From positions 1 to 64,000 of the forward strand of contig NZ_JACSRD010000116.1 of NCBI RefSeq assembly GCF_014879935.1: a stretch of 64,000 bases of DNA, read 5' to 3'. The notes below the pieces were generated by a model, which saw only the letters and a program-made list of their open reading frames with translations, was not told the origin of the DNA and did not search any database. Within the stretch, counting starts at the first letter, position 1, and each line of letters begins with the position of its first letter. This stretch comes from Prosthecobacter sp. (GTDB taxonomy: Bacteria > Verrucomicrobiota > Verrucomicrobiia > Verrucomicrobiales > Verrucomicrobiaceae). The position numbers were made by a program, and so were the translations under genes. This document shows, piece by piece, positions 3,815 through 46,423 of this stretch.

Positions 3815-5887
3815 ATGAAATTGCTCCCTGCCGCCCTCTTCTCGCTGCTTTTGGCCTCCCCTGCCCTTTCGGCACCCGATGTCGTCATTTATGGCGGCAC
3901 CTCCGGTGGTGTCACCGCAGCGATTCAAACGGCGCGGATGGGGAAAACAGCGGTTTTGATCGAACCGACGAAATTCCTCGGCGGACTGACCACGGGCGGC
4001 CTCGGCGCGACGGACATCGGCAACAAAAAGGCCATCGGCGGCATCTCGCGTGAGTTTTACGCGAACATCTTCACCTACTACGCCGATCCGGCGAAGTGGA
4101 AGCAGCAAACCCGCGAGCAATACTTCGCCAAACGCCCGCACGGCAACTCCAGCACCGAAACGACGATGTGGACCTTCGAGCCGCATGCCGCGACGGAGAT
4201 CTACGACGCCATGCTCGCGAAGGTGAAGGACAAGGTGACCGTCGTGTTCGGTGAGCGGCTCGATTTGAAGAGCGGCGTCGTCAAGAATGGGTCAAGGATC
4301 GTCAAGATTGTGATGGAGAGTGGTAAGGAGTTCGAAGGAGCGATGTTCATCGATGCCACTTATGAAGGCGATCTCATGGCGAAGGCCGGCGTAAGCTACC
4401 ATGTCGGTCGCGAGGCGAATTCACTCTACGGCGAGACGATCAATGGCCTCCAGTTGGCGGGCGCGAAGCATCATCAGTTCATCAAAAACGTCGATCCCTA
4501 TGTGAAGCCGGGCGATCCGAGCAGCGGGCTCGTTTGGGGCGTCACGCCGATGCCGGAGGGCAAGGACGGCGACGGCGATCACCGCATCCAGGCCTACAAC
4601 TTCCGCATGTGCAACACGGACGACGATTCCAACCGCGTGCCGTTCCCGAAGCCGGAAGGCTACGACGAAAAGCAGTTCGAGCTGCTCCTCCGCAACTGCG
4701 AGGCCGGTGATCCGCGTCATCCCTGGGCACCCACGCCGATGCCGAATCGCAAGACGGACACGAACAACAACTTCGCCTTCAGCACCGACATGATCGGCAT
4801 GAATTACGACTACCCGGACGCCGATTACGCCACACGGACGAAGATCTGGAAGGCACATGAAGATTATCAAAAGGGCCTCATGTGGACACTCGCCAATCAT
4901 CCGCGGGTGCCGGAGAAAATCCGCAGCTACTACTCGCAGTGGGGCCTGGCGAAGGATGAGTTCACCGAAAACGGCAACTGGCCGCGCCAGATGTATGTGC
5001 GTGAGGCCCGCCGCATGATTGGCGGCTACGTCATGAGCGAGCAGAACTGCAAACGCCGCGTCATCGTCGAGGACAGCGTCGGCATGGGTGCCTACAACAT
5101 GGACAGCCACCACACGCAGCGCTACGTGACGAAGGAAGGCTTTGCCCGCAACGAGGGCGACATCCAGATCGGCGTCCGTCCGTATCCGATCAGCTACCGC
5201 AGCATCACGCCGAAGGCGGAGCAATGCACGAACCTGCTCGTGCCCGTGTGCCTCAGCGCCAGCCACATTTCGTATGGCAGCATCCGCATGGAGCCCGTCT
5301 TCATGGTCATGGGCCAAAGCGCCGCCACCGCCGCCGTGCTCGCCATCGAAGCCAAAGTCGATCTGCAAAAGCTCGACTACGCCAAGCTCAAAGCGAAGCT
5401 CCTCGCCGATGGTCAGGTGCTCGATTTCGAATCCCCTCCTATGCCGGAGCATGTCGCCTTCACCAAAGAGCAACTCGGCGGCATCGTCGTCGATGACAGC
5501 GAGGCCGATTTGACCGGCTTCAGCTCCGAAGGCCACACCACCCCCGGTTTTGTTGGCCAAGGCTACCGCCACGACAGCGACAGTCTCAAAGGCGAGCAAA
5601 AAGCCCGCTTCACACCCAATCTCCCCGCTGTAGGCCAGTATCGCGTTTCCATCGCCTACACCGCGCTCGGCAATCGCGCTGACAAAGTCCCCGTCATCAT
5701 CCACCACGCCGACGGTGAGAAAACCGTCATCGTGAACCAAAAGGAAAAGCCCACGGAGAAGTTCAATCTGCTCCCCCTGGGCACCTTCCGCTTCGAAGCA
5801 GGCAAAACCGGCTGGCTCGAAATCCGCAACGAATGCACCACCGGCCACGTCATCATCGACGCGGCTCAGTGGCTGCCGGCGAAGTGA
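3815..5887 (+). CDS. Secreted FAD-dependent oxidoreductase with C-terminal golvesin/xanthan-lyase-like domain
   Basis: This 690-aa protein starts with a signal peptide (cleavage near ALSA-PDV, residue 20). An FAD_oxidored Rossmann motif follows directly (YGGTSGGVTAAIQTARMGK with LIEP), then the conserved FLGGLTTGGLGATD. The catalytic-type domain runs to about residue 540. The last 130 residues (from about GFSSEGHTTPGFVGQGY) resemble the golvesin/xanthan-lyase beta-sandwich, usually carbohydrate- or surface-binding. Such proteins are abundant in Verrucomicrobiota and Planctomycetota. The substrate is unknown; a sugar or polysaccharide derivative in the periplasm is the likeliest guess. It is tail-to-tail with the flavin reductase gene, the stops sharing TGATCA at 5885-5890. 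Confidence 0.88.
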   Translation: MKLLPAALFSLLLASPALSAPDVVIYGGTSGGVTAAIQTARMGKTAVLIEPTKFLGGLTTGGLGATDIGNKKAIGGISREFYANIFTYYADPAKWKQQTREQYFAKRPHGNSSTETTMWTFEPHAATEIYDAMLAKVKDKVTVVFGERLDLKSGVVKNGSRIVKIVMESGKEFEGAMFIDATYEGDLMAKAGVSYHVGREANSLYGETINGLQLAGAKHHQFIKNVDPYVKPGDPSSGLVWGVTPMPEGKDGDGDHRIQAYNFRMCNTDDDSNRVPFPKPEGYDEKQFELLLRNCEAGDPRHPWAPTPMPNRKTDTNNNFAFSTDMIGMNYDYPDADYATRTKIWKAHEDYQKGLMWTLANHPRVPEKIRSYYSQWGLAKDEFTENGNWPRQMYVREARRMIGGYVMSEQNCKRRVIVEDSVGMGAYNMDSHHTQRYVTKEGFARNEGDIQIGVRPYPISYRSITPKAEQCTNLLVPVCLSASHISYGSIRMEPVFMVMGQSAATAAVLAIEAKVDLQKLDYAKLKAKLLADGQVLDFESPPMPEHVAFTKEQLGGIVVDDSEADLTGFSSEGHTTPGFVGQGYRHDSDSLKGEQKARFTPNLPAVGQYRVSIAYTALGNRADKVPVIIHHADGEKTVIVNQKEKPTEKFNLLPLGTFRFEAGKTGWLEIRNECTTGHVIIDAAQWLPAK

Positions 5888-13085: not shown

Positions 13086-16031
13086 ATGGCCGAAGACGTG
13101 ATCCGCGTGCGTGGCGCACGGCAGCACAACCTCCAGAACATCGACGTGGACATCCCGCGGCACCAGCTCGTGGTGCTCACGGGCGTCAGCGGCAGCGGGA
13201 AGTCGTCGCTGGCCTTCGACACGCTGTTCGCGGAGGGCCAGCGCCGCTATGTGCAGAGCCTGTCGGCCTACGCGCGGCAGTTTCTGGATCAAATGCAGAA
13301 GCCGGAGGTCGATTTCATCGAGGGTCTGTCGCCAGCCGTCGCCATCGAGCAGGCACACTCGAATCCAAACCCTCGCTCGACCATCGCCACAGTCACGGAG
13401 ATCTACGACTACCTCCGCGTCCTCTACGCCGTCGCAGGTCAGCCGCACGACCCGAAAACGGGCGAAAAACTCATCCGCAGCACTCCACCTGAGATCGCGG
13501 ACAAAGTTCTGGCGCTGGGCGAAGGCACACGCGTGGTCGTTTTGTCGCCGCAAGCTCCGGCGAACGGCACGGTGACACGGGCGCTGTTTGAGAAACTGAA
13601 GCGCCAGGGCTTCGTGCGTGTGCGCTTGAACGGCGAGATCGTGGAGATCGACGATTCGCTCAAACCGGCGGCCAGCAGCCAGCATCGGGTCGAGACCGTC
13701 ATCGATCGTCTCGTCGTGCGGGCCGATTCGCGCCAGCGGCTGATGGAGGCCATCGAAAGCTCGCTGCATTGGAATGAGCGTGAGGTGCAGTTCCTCGTGA
13801 ACCTCGACGGCAGCGAGGAAATCCTCAGCTACACGACCGAGTTCGCCAATCCGCGCACCGGTTACGTCATCGAGCGCCTCACACCGCAGCATTTTTCCTT
13901 CAACACCCACCTTGGCGCCTGCCCGGTCTGCGAAGGCACCGGCACCACGCTGACGCCGGACGCGACGCTGCTGGTGCCGGACGAGTCCAAATCGCTCGCC
14001 AAAGGGGCGATCAAGGCCTGGTGGGCCAAGCACCCTAAGCTCCGCGTCGTCTTCAACCGCGGCATTGAGGCGCTGGCGCAGCATTTCGAGGTGTCGATGG
14101 ATGCGCCGTTCAAATCGCTGCCGCAGGCCTTCAAAGAGGCCCTCTTCAACGGCACGGGTGATGTGCTGATCAACACCGGCTGGAAAAAATCCGACACGAA
14201 GCGCAGCGTGGCAAAACCATTCGAGGGCCTGCTCAACGAAGTCCGCCGTCTCTACGACAACGCCGAAAGCGAGATGCTCCGCGCCAACCTCACCCGGCTG
14301 ATGAATCCGCAGCCGTGTGCGAAATGCGAAGGCAAACGGCTCAAGCCGCAATCGCTGGCTGTGAGGCTGAGTTCCAAGTTTCAAGTTTCAGGTTCCAAGG
14401 GGGATGACGCTCGTGATCCCGACCTGAAACTTGAAACTTTAAACTTTAGACTCGGCTTCGATCTTAACATCCACGAGTTCACCGCCCTCCAGATCCGTGA
14501 CGCGTTGCAGTGGATTCGCGAATTGGAAGTCACGGAGCAGCAGAAAGCCTACGTGGGCGAGTTGCAGCGGGAAATCGTGAAGCGGATCGAGTTTCTGGAG
14601 CAGGTGGGGCTCGGCTATCTGGCGCTGAATCGGGAAAGCGGCACGCTTTCGGGCGGCGAAATGCAGCGCATCCGGCTCGCGTCGCAGATCGGCGCGGGAT
14701 TGGCCGGAGTGCTTTACGTTTTGGACGAGCCGAGCATCGGATTGCATCCCGCCGACAACGAGCGGCTCATCAAGACGCTGATACGCCTCCGCGATCTCGG
14801 CAACACCGTGCTGGTCGTCGAACACGACGAGGCCACCATGCGTGCGGCCGACCATATCATCGAGCTCGGGCCCGCCGCCGGCCCGCACGGCGGAAAAATC
14901 ATCGCCCAAGGTTCGCCCGAGCAAATCGCCGCCAATGCCAGTTCGATCACCGGCGGCTTCCTCAGCGGCAAAGTCCGCATCCAGGCCACTTCGCAGCCGC
15001 AAACGCTGCTGACAGCGGATTGCGAACCGCGGACAGAGAACAGCCTCACGATCCACAACGCCACCGCACACAACCTGCGCGGCGTCACGGCTGCCTTCCC
15101 GCTCGGCTGTTTCACGTGCGTCACCGGCCCGTCCGGCAGCGGCAAATCGACGCTGGTCGATGACATCCTCATGCGGGCGCTGCGTCGGCACTTTTACGAC
15201 GCGAAGGACATTCCCGGCGCGCACGAGCGCATCACCGGCCTCGAACATCTCGACAAAGTCGTCGTGATCGATCAATCGCCGATTGGACGCAGCCCACGCT
15301 CGAATCCGGCCACCTACACCGGGGCGTTTGGGCCGATCCGTGAGCTGTTCGCGCAGCTTCCGCTCGCTCGCGTGCGCGGTTACGACGCTGGGCGCTTCAG
15401 TTTCAACACTCCCGGCGGCCGCTGCGAGAAATGCGAGGGCGACGGCTCGATCAAGATCGACATGCACTTCCTCGCCGACGTTTACGTCACTTGCGAAGCC
15501 TGCAAAGGCCGTCGCTACGGTGCCGAGACGCTCGAAGTGACGTTCAAGGGCAAAAACATCGCCGATGTGCTTGAAATGACCGTCAGCGAAGCGGCGCGTT
15601 TCTTTGACAAGAACCCCGCGATCTCGCCCAAACTGCGCACGCTGGAGGACACGGGCCTCGGCTACGTCAAACTCGGCCAGAGCGGTGCTTCCTTGTCTGG
15701 TGGCGAGGCCCAGCGCATCAAGTTGAGCACCGAACTCGCGAAACGCAGCACCGGCCGCACGCTCTACGTGCTCGACGAGCCGACCACCGGCCTGCACAGC
15801 GCCGACATCCAGACCTTGCTCCAGGTCCTCCTGCGCCTGCGAGATGCGGGCAATACACTGATCGTCATCGAACATCACCTCGACGTCATCCGCTGCGCCG
15901 ACTGGGTCATCGACCTCGGCCCCGGCGGCGGCAGCGAGGGCGGGCATATCGTTGCCACAGGCACGCCGAAGCAGATCACGGCGAACGAGAAAGGCGCGAC
16001 GGGCAGATTTCTGCGCGAGGTCATTTCATAG
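13086..16031 (+). CDS. uvrA: Excinuclease ABC subunit A, with a 28-residue hairpin-derived insertion
   Basis: This 981-aa DNA-damage sensor of nucleotide excision repair has two ABC ATPase units: Walker [17 protein letters not shown] (residues about 33-48) and [15 protein letters not shown] (about 681-695), signatures [12 protein letters not shown] and [12 protein letters not shown], and Walker [14 protein letters not shown] and [13 protein letters not shown]. The Zn module CEKCEGDG...CEACKGRR is intact. At zinc finger 1 only the second CxxC pair (ACPVCEG) remains. Residues 429-456, after [18 protein letters not shown], are an in-frame insertion made of an 18-bp inverted repeat (see the repeat at 14370). 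The ATG at 13086 is the normal family start. Confidence 0.96.
14370..14453. repeat. In-frame hairpin element inside uvrA (heptad arms)
   Basis: This 84-bp (28-codon) segment has a perfect 18-bp inverted repeat, 14376-14393 against 14422-14439, with a 28-nt loop. The arms are tandem 7-bp units of the type AAGTTTC. The segment interrupts the region where other UvrA proteins run directly from the CxxC-EGxRL motif into the next domain. The flanks read AGG-CTG and AGA-CTC (both Arg-Leu), possibly a decayed target duplication. No stop codon or frame change is introduced. Confidence 0.8.
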
Positions 16032-34860: not shown

Positions 34861-34934
34861 TCTCACGCAAAGGCGCAAAGGCGCAAAGGTTCCCAAACCT
34901 TCTGATCTTTGCGCCTTTGCGCCTTTGCGTGAGA
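34861..34934. repeat. Perfect 28-bp inverted repeat with 8-bp-unit arms
   Basis: The arm 34861-34888 (tandem GCAAAGGC units after TCTCAC) is exactly complementary to 34907-34934, with an 18-nt loop. It occupies the 111-bp gap between the flavoprotein and nirA genes and would form a very stable hairpin in the operon transcript. Confidence 0.9.
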
Positions 34935-40964: not shown

Positions 40965-41225
40965 TCACCACGGGCAGGGCACGCCATGAAGCCGTTGAAA
41001 AGCGATTCGCCTGGCCTCCGCACCTGAGATGGCATCCGACTCACGTTTGATGCCTTGCATCACCAGTTCGCGGGCGGTCGCCATCATATCGAGACTCATC
41101 ATGAGGCGCTCTGCAGGCGTTTTGCGCATCATCGCATCAAAGAGCCGCCGGTTGATCTCCGGTGGTGTGTCTTTCACGGCAAAACCCGTGTCAGCATATC
41201 TGTCAGGTTCAATGCGGCTGACCAT
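40965..41225 (-). CDS. Small protein paired with a nucleotidyltransferase
   Basis: This 86-aa helical protein contains PPEINRRLFDAMMRKTPAERLMMSLDMMATARELV and then REsDAISGAEARRIAFQRLHG. Proteins of this size and pattern commonly sit beside MNT-fold nucleotidyltransferase genes in Planctomycetota/Verrucomicrobiota, from memory of the families. Its start lies 52 bp inside the upstream nucleotidyltransferase gene, so the two are translationally linked. It could be the partner (antitoxin or regulator) of that enzyme. Function unproven. Confidence 0.6.
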   Translation of the reverse strand: MVSRIEPDRYADTGFAVKDTPPEINRRLFDAMMRKTPAERLMMSLDMMATARELVMQGIKRESDAISGAEARRIAFQRLHGVPCPW

Positions 41226-41713
41226 GTGCGTAAATAACCCTCGTCATAGCCGGTCGCAATCAGGTTCTCCACGTCCGCAAGCTGCCGCTCCGAGTGCGAG
41301 TCCCGGGCCCATTCCAGCTTGGAAAGGATGAGGTCCTCCTTGCTCACCACCCAGAGCTCAAAGTCAGCCAGTTTCAGCCGCACCCGACGGGTGAACTCGT
41401 GAATTCGGTAATCCTCTCGTTTCCGCACCATGAAGTCCACCTTGATCAAGGTCGCCTCATGGATCGCATTGAAGCTGCTCTGATGCAGCACCGCCTCGCG
41501 AGCGGCCTCGGGAGACACATAGTAGTCACTGCCCAACACCTCCGTGATGCGGGCCGCATCTTTGAGGAAAAAAGCCACCACCAGATCAATGTCACGGGTC
41601 ATACGCGGCTGCGCATGGCAGGCCAGCGCCACCGACCCCGTGAGCATGTAGTCGATGCCCACCGCATCCAGACGGGTCGTGATGTCACGGAGGACGGCGA
41701 GTTCTTCGGTCAT
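41174..41713 (-). CDS. MNT-fold nucleotidyltransferase (AbiEii/MenA-like)
   Basis: This 179-aa protein has the nucleotidyltransferase pattern GIDYMLTGSVALACHAQPRMTRDIDLVV (residues about 18-45; GS followed by DIDL, with the acidic metal ligands) and a C-terminal helical part with KEDLILSKLEWARDSHSERQLADVENLI. This resembles AbiEii/MenA-type toxins and HEPN-partner MNT proteins. It overlaps the 86-aa gene downstream. The ATG at 41713 gives MTEELAVLRDITTRLD, as in relatives. A toxin-antitoxin role is possible; a stand-alone RNA-modifying role is equally open. Confidence 0.75.
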   Translation of the reverse strand: MTEELAVLRDITTRLDAVGIDYMLTGSVALACHAQPRMTRDIDLVVAFFLKDAARITEVLGSDYYVSPEAAREAVLHQSSFNAIHEATLIKVDFMVRKREDYRIHEFTRRVRLKLADFELWVVSKEDLILSKLEWARDSHSERQLADVENLIATGYDEGYLRTWSAALNLTDMLTRVLP

Positions 41714-41909
41714 GACGTGAGACTTTTGAGGATCCAAATCGAGGTGCAGTCGGCATCGCTCACGCTGAGGCAACTGCCCGGCACCGCGGCCAAGTTTAGA
41801 CTCGCGATAAGCATGCGTCGCCCGAAAAACCCGGCTACTCTCGCTATTTCGAAGCCACAATGACTCCTCCAACGCCCTGCGGCGCTGACTTGCCGGAGCA
41901 CGCGTTTCC

Positions 41910-42782
41910 TCAAGCCGCCGCGGGCATGCCGTGGGCGGCCATTTCGGCGGCCATGTCGGGGGAGGGTTTGAACTCGGGCTCGCGGCTGGGGCGGATGTGG
42001 GATTTGTCGTTGAGGAAGGTGATAAGGTGCTCGCGCAGTTCGTAGTAGCGCGGGTCTTCCATGATCTCTTTGCGACTGCGCGGACGCTCGAAGGGGATCT
42101 TCAAAATATCGCCGACTTCGGCTTCGGGGCCGTCGGTCATCATGACGACGCGATCGGAGAGGAAGATGGCCTCATCGACATCGTGCGTGACCATGAGCGT
42201 GGTGATGCGATTGCGACGCCAGAGGTCGAGCAGGACTTCTTGAAGCTCGTAGCGCGTGAGGGAGTCGAGCATGCCAAAGGGCTCGTCGAGCAGCAGCATC
42301 TTTGGCTGGAGGGCGAAGGCGCGGGCAATGCCGACGCGCTGGCGCATGCCTTGGGAGAGCTCGCCGGGGAACTTGTGCATGGCATCGCCCAATCCGACGA
42401 TGGTGAGGTAATACTCGGCCATCTGGCGGCGCTCAGCCTTGCTGGCGGTGAAGTAAACCTGGTTCACGCCGAGCATCACATTGTCGAACGCGCTCATCCA
42501 AGGCAGTAAGCAGGGCGATTGGAAAACGATGCCGCGGTCAGGGCCTGGGCCACTGGCTTCCTTGCCCGCCAGAATCATGTTTCCTTGCGAGAGATCGCTC
42601 AAACCGGCCACCATCATGAGGACGGTGCTTTTGCCGCAACCGGAGTGGCCGATGAGCGTGGCAAACTCGCCCTCCTTGAGCTTGAGGTTGAAGTTTTTGA
42701 CGATGGTGGCCGGGCCTTTGGGAGTGCTGTATGTCTTCCAAAGACGGTCCAGTTCGAGCATGGGGAGCTTGTGCGTGCTCAT
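41910..42782 (-). CDS. nrtD: Nitrate ABC transporter ATPase (NrtD-type)
   Basis: This 290-aa ATPase of the nitrate/sulfonate/bicarbonate class has Walker [15 protein letters not shown]-loop [18 protein letters not shown], signature [15 protein letters not shown] (Gln instead of the usual second Gly), Walker [13 protein letters not shown] and [18 protein letters not shown]. It starts 4 bp inside nrtC (ATGA overlap). With nrtC it forms the heterodimeric motor of the NrtABCD uptake system, and it is the last gene of that operon. Confidence 0.9.
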
Positions 42783-43699
42783 GCGGCCACCTCCACTTCT
42801 TCACGTTTTTCAGCGGTGCGGCGTTTTGGACCGCTGCGATTGAGGAATTGCAGGGAATTCACGGTGGTGAGGTCTTCGGGCAGGATGTCTGGCAGCGTGA
42901 GTTTGAGGCTCGCCTTGGATTTCGTGCGGCCTTTGGCATCCAGGAGCGTGGTGATGAGCTGGGTGCGCAGCTTCTTGAATTTGGGGTCGTGATTGATCGT
43001 GCGGCGATCCCGCGGACGCTCGAGGTCGATGATCATCGGCTCTCCAAGCGTGGCGGGCGCGGTGGGGAGCAGCGGGATGACCTTGTCGGCGACCAAGATG
43101 GCTTCATCGGGGTCGTTGGTGATCCAGATGACGGTGGTTTTGTTGTTCTGCCAGATCTCGCTGATCTCGTCCTGAAGCGTGGCACGTGTGAGGGCATCGA
43201 GAGCGCTCAAAGGCTCGTCCATGAGCAGCACCTTCGGATTCATCGCCAGAGTGCGGGCGACGGAAACGCGCTGCCGCATGCCGCCGGAGAGCTCCTTGGG
43301 AAGCTTGTGTGCCGCTGGCGTCAGTTTGACCATCGCGATGTATTTGGCGACGTGCGCCTTGCGCTGTTCTGGCGCCCAATCCTTGAAAACTTCATCCACC
43401 GCGAGTGCGATGTTTTCCTCCACGGTGAGCCACGGGAGCAGCGAATAGTTTTGGAAGACCAAACCGCGGTCGGGACCCGGTTCGGTGATTTTTTTGCCTT
43501 CGATGAGCGCTTCGCCGGTGTCGGGCTTTACGAGACCGGAGATGAGATTGATGAGCGTGCTCTTTCCGGAGCCCGAGTAGCCGACGATGACGACGAACTC
43601 GCCCTCCTCGACACTCAGGTTGATGTCCTTGAGGACTCCCGAGCGATTGCCCGGCAGGCCATAGCCTTTGGAGGCGTTGTTGATTTCGATGAGCGGCAT
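42779..43699 (-). CDS. nrtC: Nitrate ABC transporter ATPase (NrtC-type, without the sensor domain)
   Basis: This 306-aa ATPase has Walker [15 protein letters not shown]-loop [18 protein letters not shown], signature [15 protein letters not shown], Walker [13 protein letters not shown] and a switch region [15 protein letters not shown] in which the usual His is Asn, as in cyanobacterial NrtC. Cyanobacterial NrtC (about 650 aa) also carries a NrtA-like C-terminal regulatory domain that is missing here; the separate NasS-like gene at 46420 may supply it. The nrtB-nrtC junction is split by a 440-bp four-helix-bundle element. Confidence 0.88.
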
Positions 43700-43704
43700 A
43701 CGAA

Positions 43705-44138
43705 ACTTATGATTTACGATTTATGACTTATGATTTGGAATGGCGTTCCTATGACGAACCAAGAGCTCAAAGAACGGACCATGGACTTTGCGGTGCGAGT
43801 CCTCACGATGGTGGATGCGCTGCCGAAGACGACGGCTGGCAAAACGGTCGGAAATCAGATCGCGAGGAGCGGAACCTCGGTGGCGGCAAATTATCGGGCT
43901 GCTTTGAGGGCCAAGTCCGATGCTGACTTCATCAACAAGATCACGATTGTGCTCGAGGAGGCCGACGAAAGCGGGTTTTGGATCGAACTGGCCGAAAAAG
44001 CCAAGTTGCTGCCCTCCAAGCGTCTGAAGGCCCTTCTTCAAGAAGCCGAGGAACTCACGAAAATCTTCAACGCCACGCGAGCGACGACCAAGCGCCGCAC
44101 GGCCAGAAATCATAAGTCGTAAGTCGTAAATCATAAAT
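43705..44138. mobile_element. Four-helix-bundle (IVS-like) element with heptad terminal inverted repeats
   Basis: The terminal repeats 43705-43736 and 44107-44138 (32 bp) are inverted and match at 29 of 32 positions. Each is built of 7-bp units of the type GATTTAT/GATTTAC/GACTTAT. The only cargo is the four-helix-bundle gene at 43751, on the strand opposite to the interrupted nrt operon, and its stop codon lies inside the right repeat. The element fills nearly the whole nrtB-nrtC gap (6 bp from each gene). Confidence 0.8.
43751..44122 (+). CDS. Four-helix-bundle protein (S23/23S rRNA IVS type)
   Basis: This 123-aa, all-helical protein of the S23/IVP family (TIGR02436 type) has ERTMDFAVRVLTMVDALPKT, GNQIARSGTSVAANYRAA and FINKITIVLEEADESGFWIEL. 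Relatives are encoded in 23S rRNA intervening sequences and are similar in fold to the Avd protein of diversity-generating retroelements. It is not in an rRNA gene here but between nrtB and nrtC, on the opposite strand. The start at 43751 (MTNQELKER) is the family's; the ATG at 43730 lies in the repeat. No enzymatic motif is visible; nucleic-acid binding is likely. Confidence 0.88.
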   Translation: MTNQELKERTMDFAVRVLTMVDALPKTTAGKTVGNQIARSGTSVAANYRAALRAKSDADFINKITIVLEEADESGFWIELAEKAKLLPSKRLKALLQEAEELTKIFNATRATTKRRTARNHKS

Positions 44139-44143
44139 GATGC

Positions 44144-45031
44144 TCAGGCAGTTTTGAAGCGGCCTTCGACGACACTCATGAGGCGATCGAGTACGTAACC
44201 GACGACGCCGATGGTGAGGATGCAGAGGATGATGTGCGAGTAGCTGTTGGCGTTGTATTGCTGCCAGAGGAAGCCGCCCACACCTGGTCGGCCGGTGAGC
44301 ATTTCCACGGCGACGATGACAAGCCATGCAATTCCGAGGCTCAGACGGAAGCCGGTGAACATGTAAGGCAGCGTGGCGGGAACGAGAACCTTCCAGAGCG
44401 TCTTCCACTTCGAGAGTTTGAGCACTTTGGCGACATTCAGGTAGTCCACCGGAACGGCTCGGACACCAACGGCGGTGTTCATCACCGTTGGCCACATGGC
44501 GCAGATGGCGATGGTGAAGAGGGCAGCGGCATCGGAGGCACCAAAAGTCGTGCGGCCGTCACCATCCATGATTTTGACACCGCTGAACAGAATCATGCCA
44601 AGCGGCAGCCACGCGAGCGGTGACACCGGCCGAAGCACCTGAATGATGGGATCAAAGGCTTTCGTGAATTGCTTCGACAGGCCGAGGAAGAAGCCAATCG
44701 GCGTGCCGATGATGAGCGCGATCAAGTAACCCTGTGCCACGAGCACGAGTGACATCCAGGTGAAGCGCAGAATGCCCTGATCGAGTTCACCGCGCTTGGC
44801 GAAAGGCTCGACGATGTAAGGCTTGCTGGCGGTCCAGGTCTCGACGGGCGTGGGCAGATCGGCGGAGAGGCCTTCACGCTTCGTGATTTTGACCTTGTCG
44901 CCGAAATCATCGACCTTTTCCGTCACCACCGACTTTCCGGCGATGGCATACCAGAAGACGCAGGTGATGAAGATCGCGACCAACGGCAGGAAGATGGAGT
45001 CGAGTTTGTATTTGTGGATGAAGGGATGCAT
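44144..45031 (-). CDS. nrtB: Nitrate ABC transporter permease (NrtB-type)
   Basis: This 295-aa inner-membrane permease of the nitrate/taurine class has about six membrane segments (the first at about 12-30, SIFLPLVAIFITCVFWYAI). A binding-protein-dependent transport motif is seen in VLRPVSPLAWLPLGMILFSG and the EAA-like loop near LSKWKTLWKVLVPATLPYMFTGFRLSLG. A periplasmic insertion (about 32-75) is longer than in many relatives. It is third in the operon, between two repeat elements. Confidence 0.9.
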   Translation of the reverse strand: MHPFIHKYKLDSIFLPLVAIFITCVFWYAIAGKSVVTEKVDDFGDKVKITKREGLSADLPTPVETWTASKPYIVEPFAKRGELDQGILRFTWMSLVLVAQGYLIALIIGTPIGFFLGLSKQFTKAFDPIIQVLRPVSPLAWLPLGMILFSGVKIMDGDGRTTFGASDAAALFTIAICAMWPTVMNTAVGVRAVPVDYLNVAKVLKLSKWKTLWKVLVPATLPYMFTGFRLSLGIAWLVIVAVEMLTGRPGVGGFLWQQYNANSYSHIILCILTIGVVGYVLDRLMSVVEGRFKTA

Positions 45032-45034
45032 CGG

Positions 45035-45140
45035 AATTTATGATTTATGATTTTTGACTTATGATTTCCGATCTGACCTCCCTCGCCGCTCCTTGTGGAG
45101 CGGTTTGGGAAATCAAAAATCGTAAATCATAAATCATAAA
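45035..45140. mobile_element. MITE-like cargo-less relative of the four-helix-bundle element
   Basis: The inverted arms 45035-45068 and 45107-45140 match at 30 of 34 positions and use the same GATTTAT-type heptads as the element at 43705. Only 38 bp lie between them, containing a small inner hairpin CCGCTCC/GGAGCGG. It fills the nrtA-nrtB gap. Confidence 0.8.
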
Positions 45141-45148
45141 TGGCTCGG

Positions 45149-46423
45149 TCAGCCCTTGATCGTCTTCACCGCGAAGGAGGCGGCGTAGGCTTCGAGGTCG
45201 GCGGTGGGGTCGAATTTGACGCCGTCAAAGAGGGTTTCGGCGCTGGTGTCGGCTCCGGCGTGGGCGTAGCCGATTTCCTTCATGGCCTCTTCATAGATGT
45301 CGGAACGCATGACCTGCTTGGCGACGCCTTCGTAGTCGGGAGCGCCTTCGACGAAGCCCCAGCGGCGGAGCTGCGTGAGCCACCACTTGGCGTATTTGGC
45401 CTGCGGGTAGTTGCAGTTGCGATCGCTGAAGATCATGTAGTTCGGATCCTTGAACTTGCGGCCGTCGCCCATGAGGTATTTGCCTTCGAGGCGGCCGAGA
45501 ATGGTCTCGGGCGGGCAGTTGATGTAAGTGGCGGCGCTGACGATGTTCGCCTGCTCGGGACGGTTCTCCATCTTGTCGAGCCACACGCTGGCCTCATGCA
45601 GGGCCTTGAGCACGGCTTTGACGGTCTTCGGATTCTTCGCGGCGAACTCCTCGGTGAAGGCGCAGACCTTTTCAGGGTGATCCTTCCACATGGCCTGCGT
45701 GGTGATGGAGGTGTAGCCGATGTCCTCAGCGATGGTCTTGGCGTTCCAAGGTTCGCCGACGCAGAAGCCGTCCATCTTGCCGACTTTCATGTTCGCGACC
45801 ATCTGCGGAGGCGGCACGGTGATGAGGGAAACGTCAGCGCCTGCCCCATTCGCATCGCCGGGATTGATGCCACCCGCGGCGAGGTAATAGCGCATCCACA
45901 TGGCGTGTGTGCCAGGCGGGAAGGTCATCGCGAAGGTCATCGGCGTGCCTTTGGCCTTGGCATCATCGACGAAGGGCTTCAGCGCCTTCGGATCGTCGGC
46001 GACCTTGCCTTTGAGCGAATTCGCGAGCGTGATGGCCTGGCCATTGCGGTTGATTAGCCATGGAATGATCATCGGTTTTTTCGGCGCACCGCCGAGGCCC
46101 ATGGTGGAGGCAATCGGCATGCCGATGAGCATGTGCGTGGCCTGGATGTCGCCATTCGAGAGCGAATCGCGGATGGCGGCCCAGCTCGCGCCTTTGCTCA
46201 CGGTGGAATTGATGCCATATTTTTTGAAGAGACCCTTTTCATGCGCCACGACGATGCTGGAGCAATCGGTGAGGGCAATGATGCCGAGTTTCACATCGGG
46301 GGACTCAGGCGAGTCATCGGCGTAGGCGGAGCCGACCCAGCCAGAGGGCAGGCCGGAGAGGAGGGCGCCGAGGCCAGCCTGGCGGAGGATGTTGCGACGG
46401 GTGAGCGGAGTGGCGGTATTCAT
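45149..46423 (-). CDS. nrtA: Periplasmic nitrate-binding protein (NrtA-type, Tat-exported)
   Basis: This 424-aa substrate-binding protein of the NrtA/CmpA family has a twin-arginine signal (TRRNILRQAGLGALLSGLP). The mature part contains LGIIALTDCSSIVVAHEKGLFKKYGI, WAAIRDSLSNGDIQATHMLIGMPI and MDGFCVGEPWNAKTIAEDIGY, all family hallmarks. It binds nitrate (perhaps nitrite) and hands it to NrtB. The start overlaps the stop of the upstream NasS-like gene by 4 bp. Bicarbonate-binding CmpA is the alternative; the nitrate genes nearby favour NrtA. Confidence 0.9.
   Translation of the reverse strand: MNTATPLTRRNILRQAGLGALLSGLPSGWVGSAYADDSPESPDVKLGIIALTDCSSIVVAHEKGLFKKYGINSTVSKGASWAAIRDSLSNGDIQATHMLIGMPIASTMGLGGAPKKPMIIPWLINRNGQAITLANSLKGKVADDPKALKPFVDDAKAKGTPMTFAMTFPPGTHAMWMRYYLAAGGINPGDANGAGADVSLITVPPPQMVANMKVGKMDGFCVGEPWNAKTIAEDIGYTSITTQAMWKDHPEKVCAFTEEFAAKNPKTVKAVLKALHEASVWLDKMENRPEQANIVSAATYINCPPETILGRLEGKYLMGDGRKFKDPNYMIFSDRNCNYPQAKYAKWWLTQLRRWGFVEGAPDYEGVAKQVMRSDIYEEAMKEIGYAHAGADTSAETLFDGVKFDPTADLEAYAASFAVKTIKG

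Follow-up and report, generated by a model that had tools for sequence, protein, structure and literature searches.

The described elements closest to the locus reported here are the intervening sequences (IVSs) of 23S rRNA that carry an S23 protein gene (Coxiella, Leptospira and Azospirillum) and that sit in helix 9, 25 or 45. In the IVS of Coxiella burnetii, tandem heptamers of the type GACAGAT occur ahead of the S23 ORF and RNase III cuts within a 28-bp terminal stem; the same source also states that IVSs took the place of small tetraloops, that the S23p of X. campestris is a homopentamer and that the origin and function of 23S rRNA IVSs have been open for more than 25 years (PMC4990558). 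Both solved S23 entries contain five chains, and S23 is probably a pentamer.

Several systems found outside rRNA offer further points of comparison. In the REP/BIME/RAYT system, arms occur alone, as inverted pairs or on both sides of a protein gene. In diversity-generating retroelements, a reverse transcriptase (RT) is found beside Avd, which shares a four-helix fold with S23. MITEs are, like S23 elements, short inverted-repeat elements without a transposase. Finally, tandem heptamers have been reported in Calothrix (three tandem heptanucleotides, cited in PMC4692102) and in Beggiatoaceae (TAACTGA; PMC4679880). As in the S23 arms described below, these are 7-bp tandem units with a mostly intergenic location, but they were described as direct repeats and the word S23 is absent from the main texts of the two papers (PMC4692102, PMC4679880). 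Searches of the open PMC library, for the most part read in outline, gave no account of S23 elements that stand free and have heptad arms.

An S23 gene between inverted arms in a nitrate transport operon

The window, i.e. the whole stretch of 64,000 nucleotides from a Prosthecobacter sp. contig, contains an S23 gene that lies between two inverted arms and two genes of a nitrate-type ABC transporter:

42779..43699, minus strand: left neighbour, nitrate-type ABC transporter ATPase (nrtC-like; TIGR01184, 289.4 bits)
43705..43736, plus strand: left terminal arm, with inward-reading heptads ACTTATG, ATTTACG, ATTTATG, ACTTATG and ATTT
43751..44122, plus strand: S23 (23S_rRNA_IVP / TIGR02436) gene whose ATG start gives a product of 123 aa
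44107..44138, minus strand: right terminal arm, an inverted copy of the left arm (29/32) that overlaps the 3' end of the S23 ORF
44144..45031, minus strand: right neighbour, nitrate ABC permease (ntrB; TIGR01183, 215.4 bits)

The S23 product exceeds the cut-off of both the Pfam model PF05635 (23S_rRNA_IVP; 61.2 bits, cut-off 33.8) and the NCBIfam model TIGR02436 (87.4 bits, cut-off 24), and its AlphaFold2 model displays four helices with a mean pLDDT of 96.1. A longer ORF (43730-44122, plus strand) is also open, the ATG at 43751 being the likelier start. The score of the permease is above its cut-off of 209.05 while that of the ATPase is slightly below the 291.8 required. Arm units are 7 bp long (e.g. 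ATTTATG, ATTTACG and ACTTATG) and the arms are complementary at 29 of 32 positions, the repeat search returning 30 nt at 93%. When the 350-bp flanks were aligned locally the score was 50, none of 200 dinucleotide shuffles exceeding 29. In the genome of origin, the heptad pattern (3 mismatches allowed) occurs 22 times and its reversed-pattern control not at all. Family scores and repeat search thus confirm what the sequence-only reading had described, namely an S23/IVP gene with 32-bp heptad inverted repeats; its antisense placement between nrtB and nrtC also stands, although the distance between each arm and the adjoining start or stop codon is 5 bp and not 6 bp.

Like the IVSs of 23S rRNA, this element has an S23 ORF, a length of ca. 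430 bp and a terminal inverted stem (predicted at ca. 30 bp, RNA fold z -3.67). Its ends are likewise made of heptamers, a feature documented for Coxiella (PMC4990558) and Azospirillum that may not extend to all IVSs. It differs in its location, antisense between an ATPase and a permease gene and outside 23S rRNA, no Rfam family reaching the gathering score within 43500-45300, and therefore does not entail rRNA fragmentation. On the reading that we favour, with a probability of ca. 0.6, the locus represents a dispersed insertion element, ca. 434 bp in length, in which a single S23 gene lies between two inverted arms of short tandem units.

The nitrate junction was searched for in 48 genomes of the same genus, including that of the window; 45 gave some match, with many paralogues, and 30 loci were read. 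The S23 element is present in nine of these and 14 are empty with merely 8 to 20 bp separating the two genes, while in G013 (L016) the junction is occupied by a different insert of 713 bp that carries a GxxExxY gene. For the remainder, L027 and L035 seem empty with a poor alignment at the junction, and L021, L033, L034 and L036 were not judgeable. The 14 clear empty sites bear out the sequence-only reading, which had proposed a discrete insertion outside rRNA and a comparison of the nrtB-nrtC junction in relatives. Judged by presence and absence at orthologous sites, the S23 element of the window is an insertion.

In a tree built from nrtC and nrtB, filled and empty states are interleaved in a patchy manner: the empty G028 groups with the filled G027 (support 96), adjoining the filled G024, and the empty G008 pairs with the filled G016 (support 95). 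Several deeper nodes are weak, so that the number of S23 gains and losses cannot be derived from this tree. Near relatives of the window S23 also occur at other sites, in G014, G035 and G047 as well as in G034, where the copy lies in the same operon between the permease and substrate-binding-protein genes. The copy of G046 has an in-frame TAA at codon 4. Within the window clade, a median dN/dS of 0.075 (40 pairs of 10 sequences, many with dS >1) points to strong purifying selection on S23. Comparison of 28 diverse S23 sequences shows complete conservation of Q36, R39 and E73 and near-complete conservation of S43 and N47; to our knowledge, S23 has no known nuclease residues.

Arms of S23 genes across phyla and within a 23S rRNA gene

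The six S23 matches of the genome of origin all have inverted arms, with units that differ among the six. The genus set comprised 35 S23 loci, 31 of which were tested after leaving out L039, L049, L056 and L061 (<3150 bases); the inverted flank alignment was above dinucleotide shuffles at p <=0.01 in 30 of the 31 and above all 200 shuffles in 26. The sequence-only reading had proposed to test S23 genes elsewhere for terminal repeats and, in keeping with it, arms above the threshold were found for 122 of 134 genes when the genus (30/31), the phylum (23/29, one locus cut by a contig end left out) and a named bacteria-wide set (69/74) were pooled, the last made of the best 80 matches minus six without full flanks. 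Control positions shifted by 750 bp in the same loci met the threshold in 6 of 267 cases, and a second control with other shifts in the named set did so in 8 of 290. Removal of near-duplicates gave 120 of 132. The loci mostly represent the top-scoring match per genome and the survey is thus not a random sample. Half of the 12 loci below the threshold come from the 29 of the phylum set, and at least six of the 12 show short-period arrays by eye (L046, L193, L242, L291, L298 and L311).

The S23 gene family was detected in 220 of 288 genomes sampled from the phylum of the window and in many other phyla, with one weak match in a phage record from human faeces. The nearest named relatives of S23 suggest that the host of the window is probably a member of the Verrucomicrobiota. 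In the plasmid collection, 36 records have an S23 match; the 12 loci examined, among which are three near-identical pairs, all display period-7 arms with scores of 38-63 (controls <=24), and a thirteenth, from Gemmatirosa, has arms scored without control. By these alignments, the inverted-arm architecture of S23 genes spans many phyla.

The period of the better arm in the 122 elements is 7 in 78 cases, 8 in 17, 10 in 12 and another value in four, with none clear in 11; of 2440 segment pairs drawn at random in these loci, 172 also passed the periodicity cut. Heptads, the only unit length in the sequence-only reading, are therefore the commonest period but not the sole one. Read inward, the arms contain more G than C in 117 of the 122 elements, with the reverse in four and a tie in one. 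When neighbours were assigned by a rough ORF rule, 88 of 99 loci had an upstream gene in the same direction as S23. Only five are antisense to both neighbours as in the window, so that this arrangement belongs to a rare class, which qualifies the sequence-only reading. An arrangement similar to that of the window was seen in plasmid pNe_5 of Nostoc edaphicum (L325), where the S23 element lies antisense between the ribonucleotide reductase beta and alpha genes.

Within elements, arm-to-arm identity (median 0.88) is above unit-to-unit identity (0.72). Of the 80 elements whose arms are ungapped and >=24 nt long, 75 have the higher value between arms, in a comparison where best-register alignment favours the arm-to-arm value; this gap suggests that arms are kept up as inverted copies. 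Arm differences in 99 elements reveal no excess of G-U-compatible changes (72 vs 100 other transitions and 241 transversions), the deficit (p 0.04) being opposite in direction to that expected from RNA-pairing selection. Strong selection on RNA pairing of the arms is thus not supported. Recognition of a fixed unit is not supported either, since S23 proteins less than ca. 50% identical have no arm unit in common, which implies that recognition, if any, would be by shape, period or polarity.

The link to rRNA comes from replicon AZO_p2 of Azospirillum lipoferum 4B, where an S23 gene occurs within a 23S rRNA gene (RF02541, 2526.7 bits). The arms of this IVS consist of period-7 units such as GACGGAT and GACAGAG, and its RNA fold has a z of -9.16. 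The S23 insert is absent from the three other 23S copies of strain 4B that were examined and from one of B510. These unfilled copies read GCTGCGGAT-GTGATCTTATGATCAC-GTGGTAGCGG, or close variants of it, while the filled copy reads GCTGCGGAT-element-GTGGTAGCGG, which indicates that the element replaces a 16-nt hairpin and adds a long stem. From its position, we take the replaced hairpin to be that of helix 45. The same heptad-arm architecture thus occurs inside one 23S rRNA gene. This locus is the one direct rRNA case in the analysis, and no typed 23S motif was detected in the S23 loci scanned for such motifs.

The rRNA IVSs and the free element coincide in their gene, in their inverted stem and in the heptad make-up of that stem. 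They look like one dispersed class in which cargo-less copies and, by their shared plan, GxxExxY genes (see below) are included. The window element is probably of the same class as the S23-coding IVSs of 23S rRNA, here placed between two protein genes, and the comparison suggests that the 23S rRNA inserts belong to a far wider family of dispersed DNA elements. If IVSs are rRNA-borne members of such a class, their origin and function become testable in intergenic copies, which suit such tests since insertion there is not masked by rRNA homogenisation.

Cargo-less, solo-arm and GxxExxY relatives

Three further periodic inverted pairs occur in the window and enclose no gene:

45036..45141, no strand: second element, cargo-less, of the same unit family as the window S23 arms; inverted heptad arms of 34 nt (88%), 38 bp apart
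34861..34929, no strand: cargo-less inverted pair of 8-bp units GCGCAAAG, nearly perfect, 2 bp apart
14366..14455, no strand: two arms of AAGTTTC-type heptads in inverted orientation, with 18 bp and no cargo between them, within a long ORF to which they add ca. 30 codons

The first lies between the permease and substrate-binding-protein genes. The octad of the second is also the unit of the GxxExxY insert of G013. The long ORF that holds the third presumably encodes a UvrA-like protein. A search of 661 kb, made up of the window and 80 loci, revealed 29 further pairs of periodic inverted arms. Of these, 17 enclose 2-96 bp, and some of the longer ones join arms of two different elements; none was found in a block-shuffled quarter of the loci. 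The window arm also matches 18 other places in the genus; 10 of these have an inverted partner that scores >=40 at a distance of 13-158 bp, one has a weaker partner (30) and the remaining seven have none within 1 kb. Cargo-less and solo-arm relatives of the element thus exist.

Solo heptad arms were also seen within ORFs, in L131 (G000:C73:84256) and, near the ORF start, in L123 (G000:C123:1873); we assume the products to be UvrA-like and prepilin-like, respectively. In L002, the downstream gene seems to take its N-terminal codons from the right arm of an S23 element (1871-1914), which indicates that arms can turn into coding sequence.

The gene found in the G013 insert encodes a GxxExxY protein with a PD-(D/E)XK fold (PF13366, 132.8 bits; located by TIGR04256) and is associated with 8-bp arrays of the GCGCAAAG type at both ends as well as inside the insert. 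Of 30 GxxExxY loci in the genus, seven were cut short and left out; inverted arms were found in 21 of the 23 full loci vs 0 of 46 controls, with units of ca. 8-9 bp by eye and a weaker periodicity. The cargo between such arms is therefore not always S23, which amends the picture given by the sequence-only reading.

These data also bear on a host-side explanation, in which slippage-prone arrays would serve as mRNA hairpins that aid operon expression, S23 being a resident regulatory gene that rarely moves. The nrtB-nrtA spacer, which in relatives is empty or holds the full S23 element of G034, contains unrelated GC-rich hairpins in others, as such an explanation would have it, and the arm turned coding in L002 is also in keeping with it. 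So is the over-representation of heptamers in bacteria, for which a link to DNA polymerase slippage has been proposed (PMC4692102). Against it, S23 copies of the same family occur at different sites, empty sites exist, one junction has received two different types of cargo, and a single 34-bp arm sequence recurs nine times over six genomes, one of which has it at three places. We consider this explanation distinctly unlikely and retain that of a dispersed insertion element.

Junctions and possible routes of movement

We infer the mobility of the element from the comparison of filled and empty sites, and junctions were read in plasmids of Nostocales, in which filled and empty versions of ca. 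88-95% identity were compared at three sites. At the first site, GGTTCTA-GGTTATG has become GGTTCTA-element-CTAGTTATG, with 3 bp repeated. At the second, which is the next junction on homologous plasmids, an element with another unit is inserted after GGTAATG and before ATGGGATTTG, again with 3 bp repeated and with ca. 35 bp past the right arm. At the third, 11 bp of the target were lost. Within the genus, divergence at the nrt, L002 and L006 junctions was too high for the empty sites to define insertion points exactly. The 122 elements share no target duplication of constant length, the longest direct repeat in 15-bp flanks measuring 3.60 for own vs 3.45 for cross pairs, and this candidate signature of insertion was rejected; wider flanks of 25 bp gave a slight excess of direct matches of >=7 bp (8/122 vs 1.9%). 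Repeat, loss and replacement at different junctions are unlike the outcome of an ordinary transposase.

The genome of origin has 27 matches to Y1 transposases, 19 of them with flanks long enough to be tested. No short-period array was reported at these 19 loci, their repeats being palindrome-like or absent, which speaks against a RAYT/Y1 transposase as the mover of S23 elements. The solo, paired and gene-flanking arms of S23 elements reproduce the three-level pattern of REP/BIME with RAYT (TnpA_REP), but this system relies on a Y1 nuclease and imperfect palindromes, whereas S23 elements have no Y1 and arms made of short-period arrays. Inverted termini, cargo-less versions and multiple sites would equally suit a non-autonomous, MITE-like transposon moved in trans by a DDE or HuH transposase, with S23 and GxxExxY as passengers. 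Such a transposon is hard to reconcile with the inconsistent target duplications (3 bp twice and 11 bp lost in Nostocales), with arm units that vary between elements of one genome, with the Y1 loci and with the strong purifying selection on S23, which make it quite improbable; S23 elements further depart from MITEs in having tandem-unit arms and a conserved gene that is not a transposase.

Movement of a retro type, in which an RT supplied in trans would copy the element RNA held by an Avd-like S23 into DNA that is then inserted, was also considered. In Foldseek searches with the window S23 model, the S23 structures 2rld (E 1.2e-6) and 2gsc (E 6.8e-4) rank first, and Avd (4dwl, TM 0.72, E 0.05) and a DGR ribonucleoprotein (8ub7, E 0.028) are also matched, in agreement with the relation between S23 and Avd folds pointed out in the sequence-only reading. 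The bAvd model also matches one S23 protein of the genus below threshold (21 bits, cut-off 40), and the GxxExxY protein (L016 2191-2580) weakly matches PADLOC models for an RT-associated PD-(D/E)XK protein (RTasPDDEXK, E 3e-4) and Cas4 (0.009), so that both types of cargo recall RT partners. The mostly co-directional orientation of S23 with the upstream gene would also fit. RT genes were encountered next to arms in two instances. In the genome of origin, a split RT (L344 1768-3251, G000:C163) is flanked by a period-7 array and, across the RT, by a weak inverted partner of that array, which scored 25 for a threshold of 26; this RT may be a further cargo of such arms. In G027, an RT of the group II intron type (TIGR04416, 367.3 bits; L343 1634-4227, G027:C113) adjoins an S23 gene, but pieces of that element's right arm are present on both sides of it (2139-2150 and 4204-4227, i.e. 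12 and 24 nt) and it hence reads as an intron that landed in the arm.

The distribution of RTs argues against such a route. The REVERSE TRANSCRIPTASES family RVT_1 is absent from 24 of the 48 genus genomes, and these have 111 S23 matches vs 119 in the 24 genomes with RVT_1. In the genome of origin, RVT_1 matches are confined to contigs C159 and C163, with none on the window contig (C60), which sets the window element apart from diversity-generating retroelements. An RT as resident mover was rejected, half of the genus having no RVT_1 and no clear difference in S23 number, and retro-type movement as a whole is unlikely. Neither a transposase, in the Y1 search of the genome of origin, nor an RT, in the RVT_1 search of the 48 genomes, was found to track S23 elements.

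For the dispersed insertion element favoured here, the following route can be proposed. The arms would fold into a long hairpin, either in a transcript or in single-stranded DNA, and S23, probably as a pentamer, would bind it by shape and not by sequence. Host enzymes would then copy or join the element and its cargo-less relatives into new sites via the hairpin, frequent targets being gene-gene junctions or an existing hairpin that is replaced, with variable junctions as a result. At heptad arms, S23 would thus have the role that RAYT proteins have at REP hairpins, except that no nuclease is known for it. In rRNA, trimming by RNase III would render the insertion tolerable, while intergenic copies of S23 would be expressed by transcription that runs on from the gene upstream; for the window copy, which is antisense to the operon and in the rare class of 5 loci in 99, such expression is doubtful.

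More tentatively, and with less than even odds, S23 and GxxExxY genes may be part of a phylum-spanning class of mobile elements not described before. Its ends would be short-period, G-polar inverted arrays with a unit free to change, and it would disperse by hairpin exchange without a classical transposase, in the form of full elements, of hairpins without cargo and of single arms, the IVSs of 23S rRNA being members that landed in rRNA. A dispersed class of this kind, if true, could account for part of the over-representation of heptamers in bacteria and could point to DNA movement without a recognised transposase.

Downstream of the nitrate operon, the window also contains a gene for an AbiEii-type nucleotidyltransferase (PF08843, 32.7 bits; 41174-41872).
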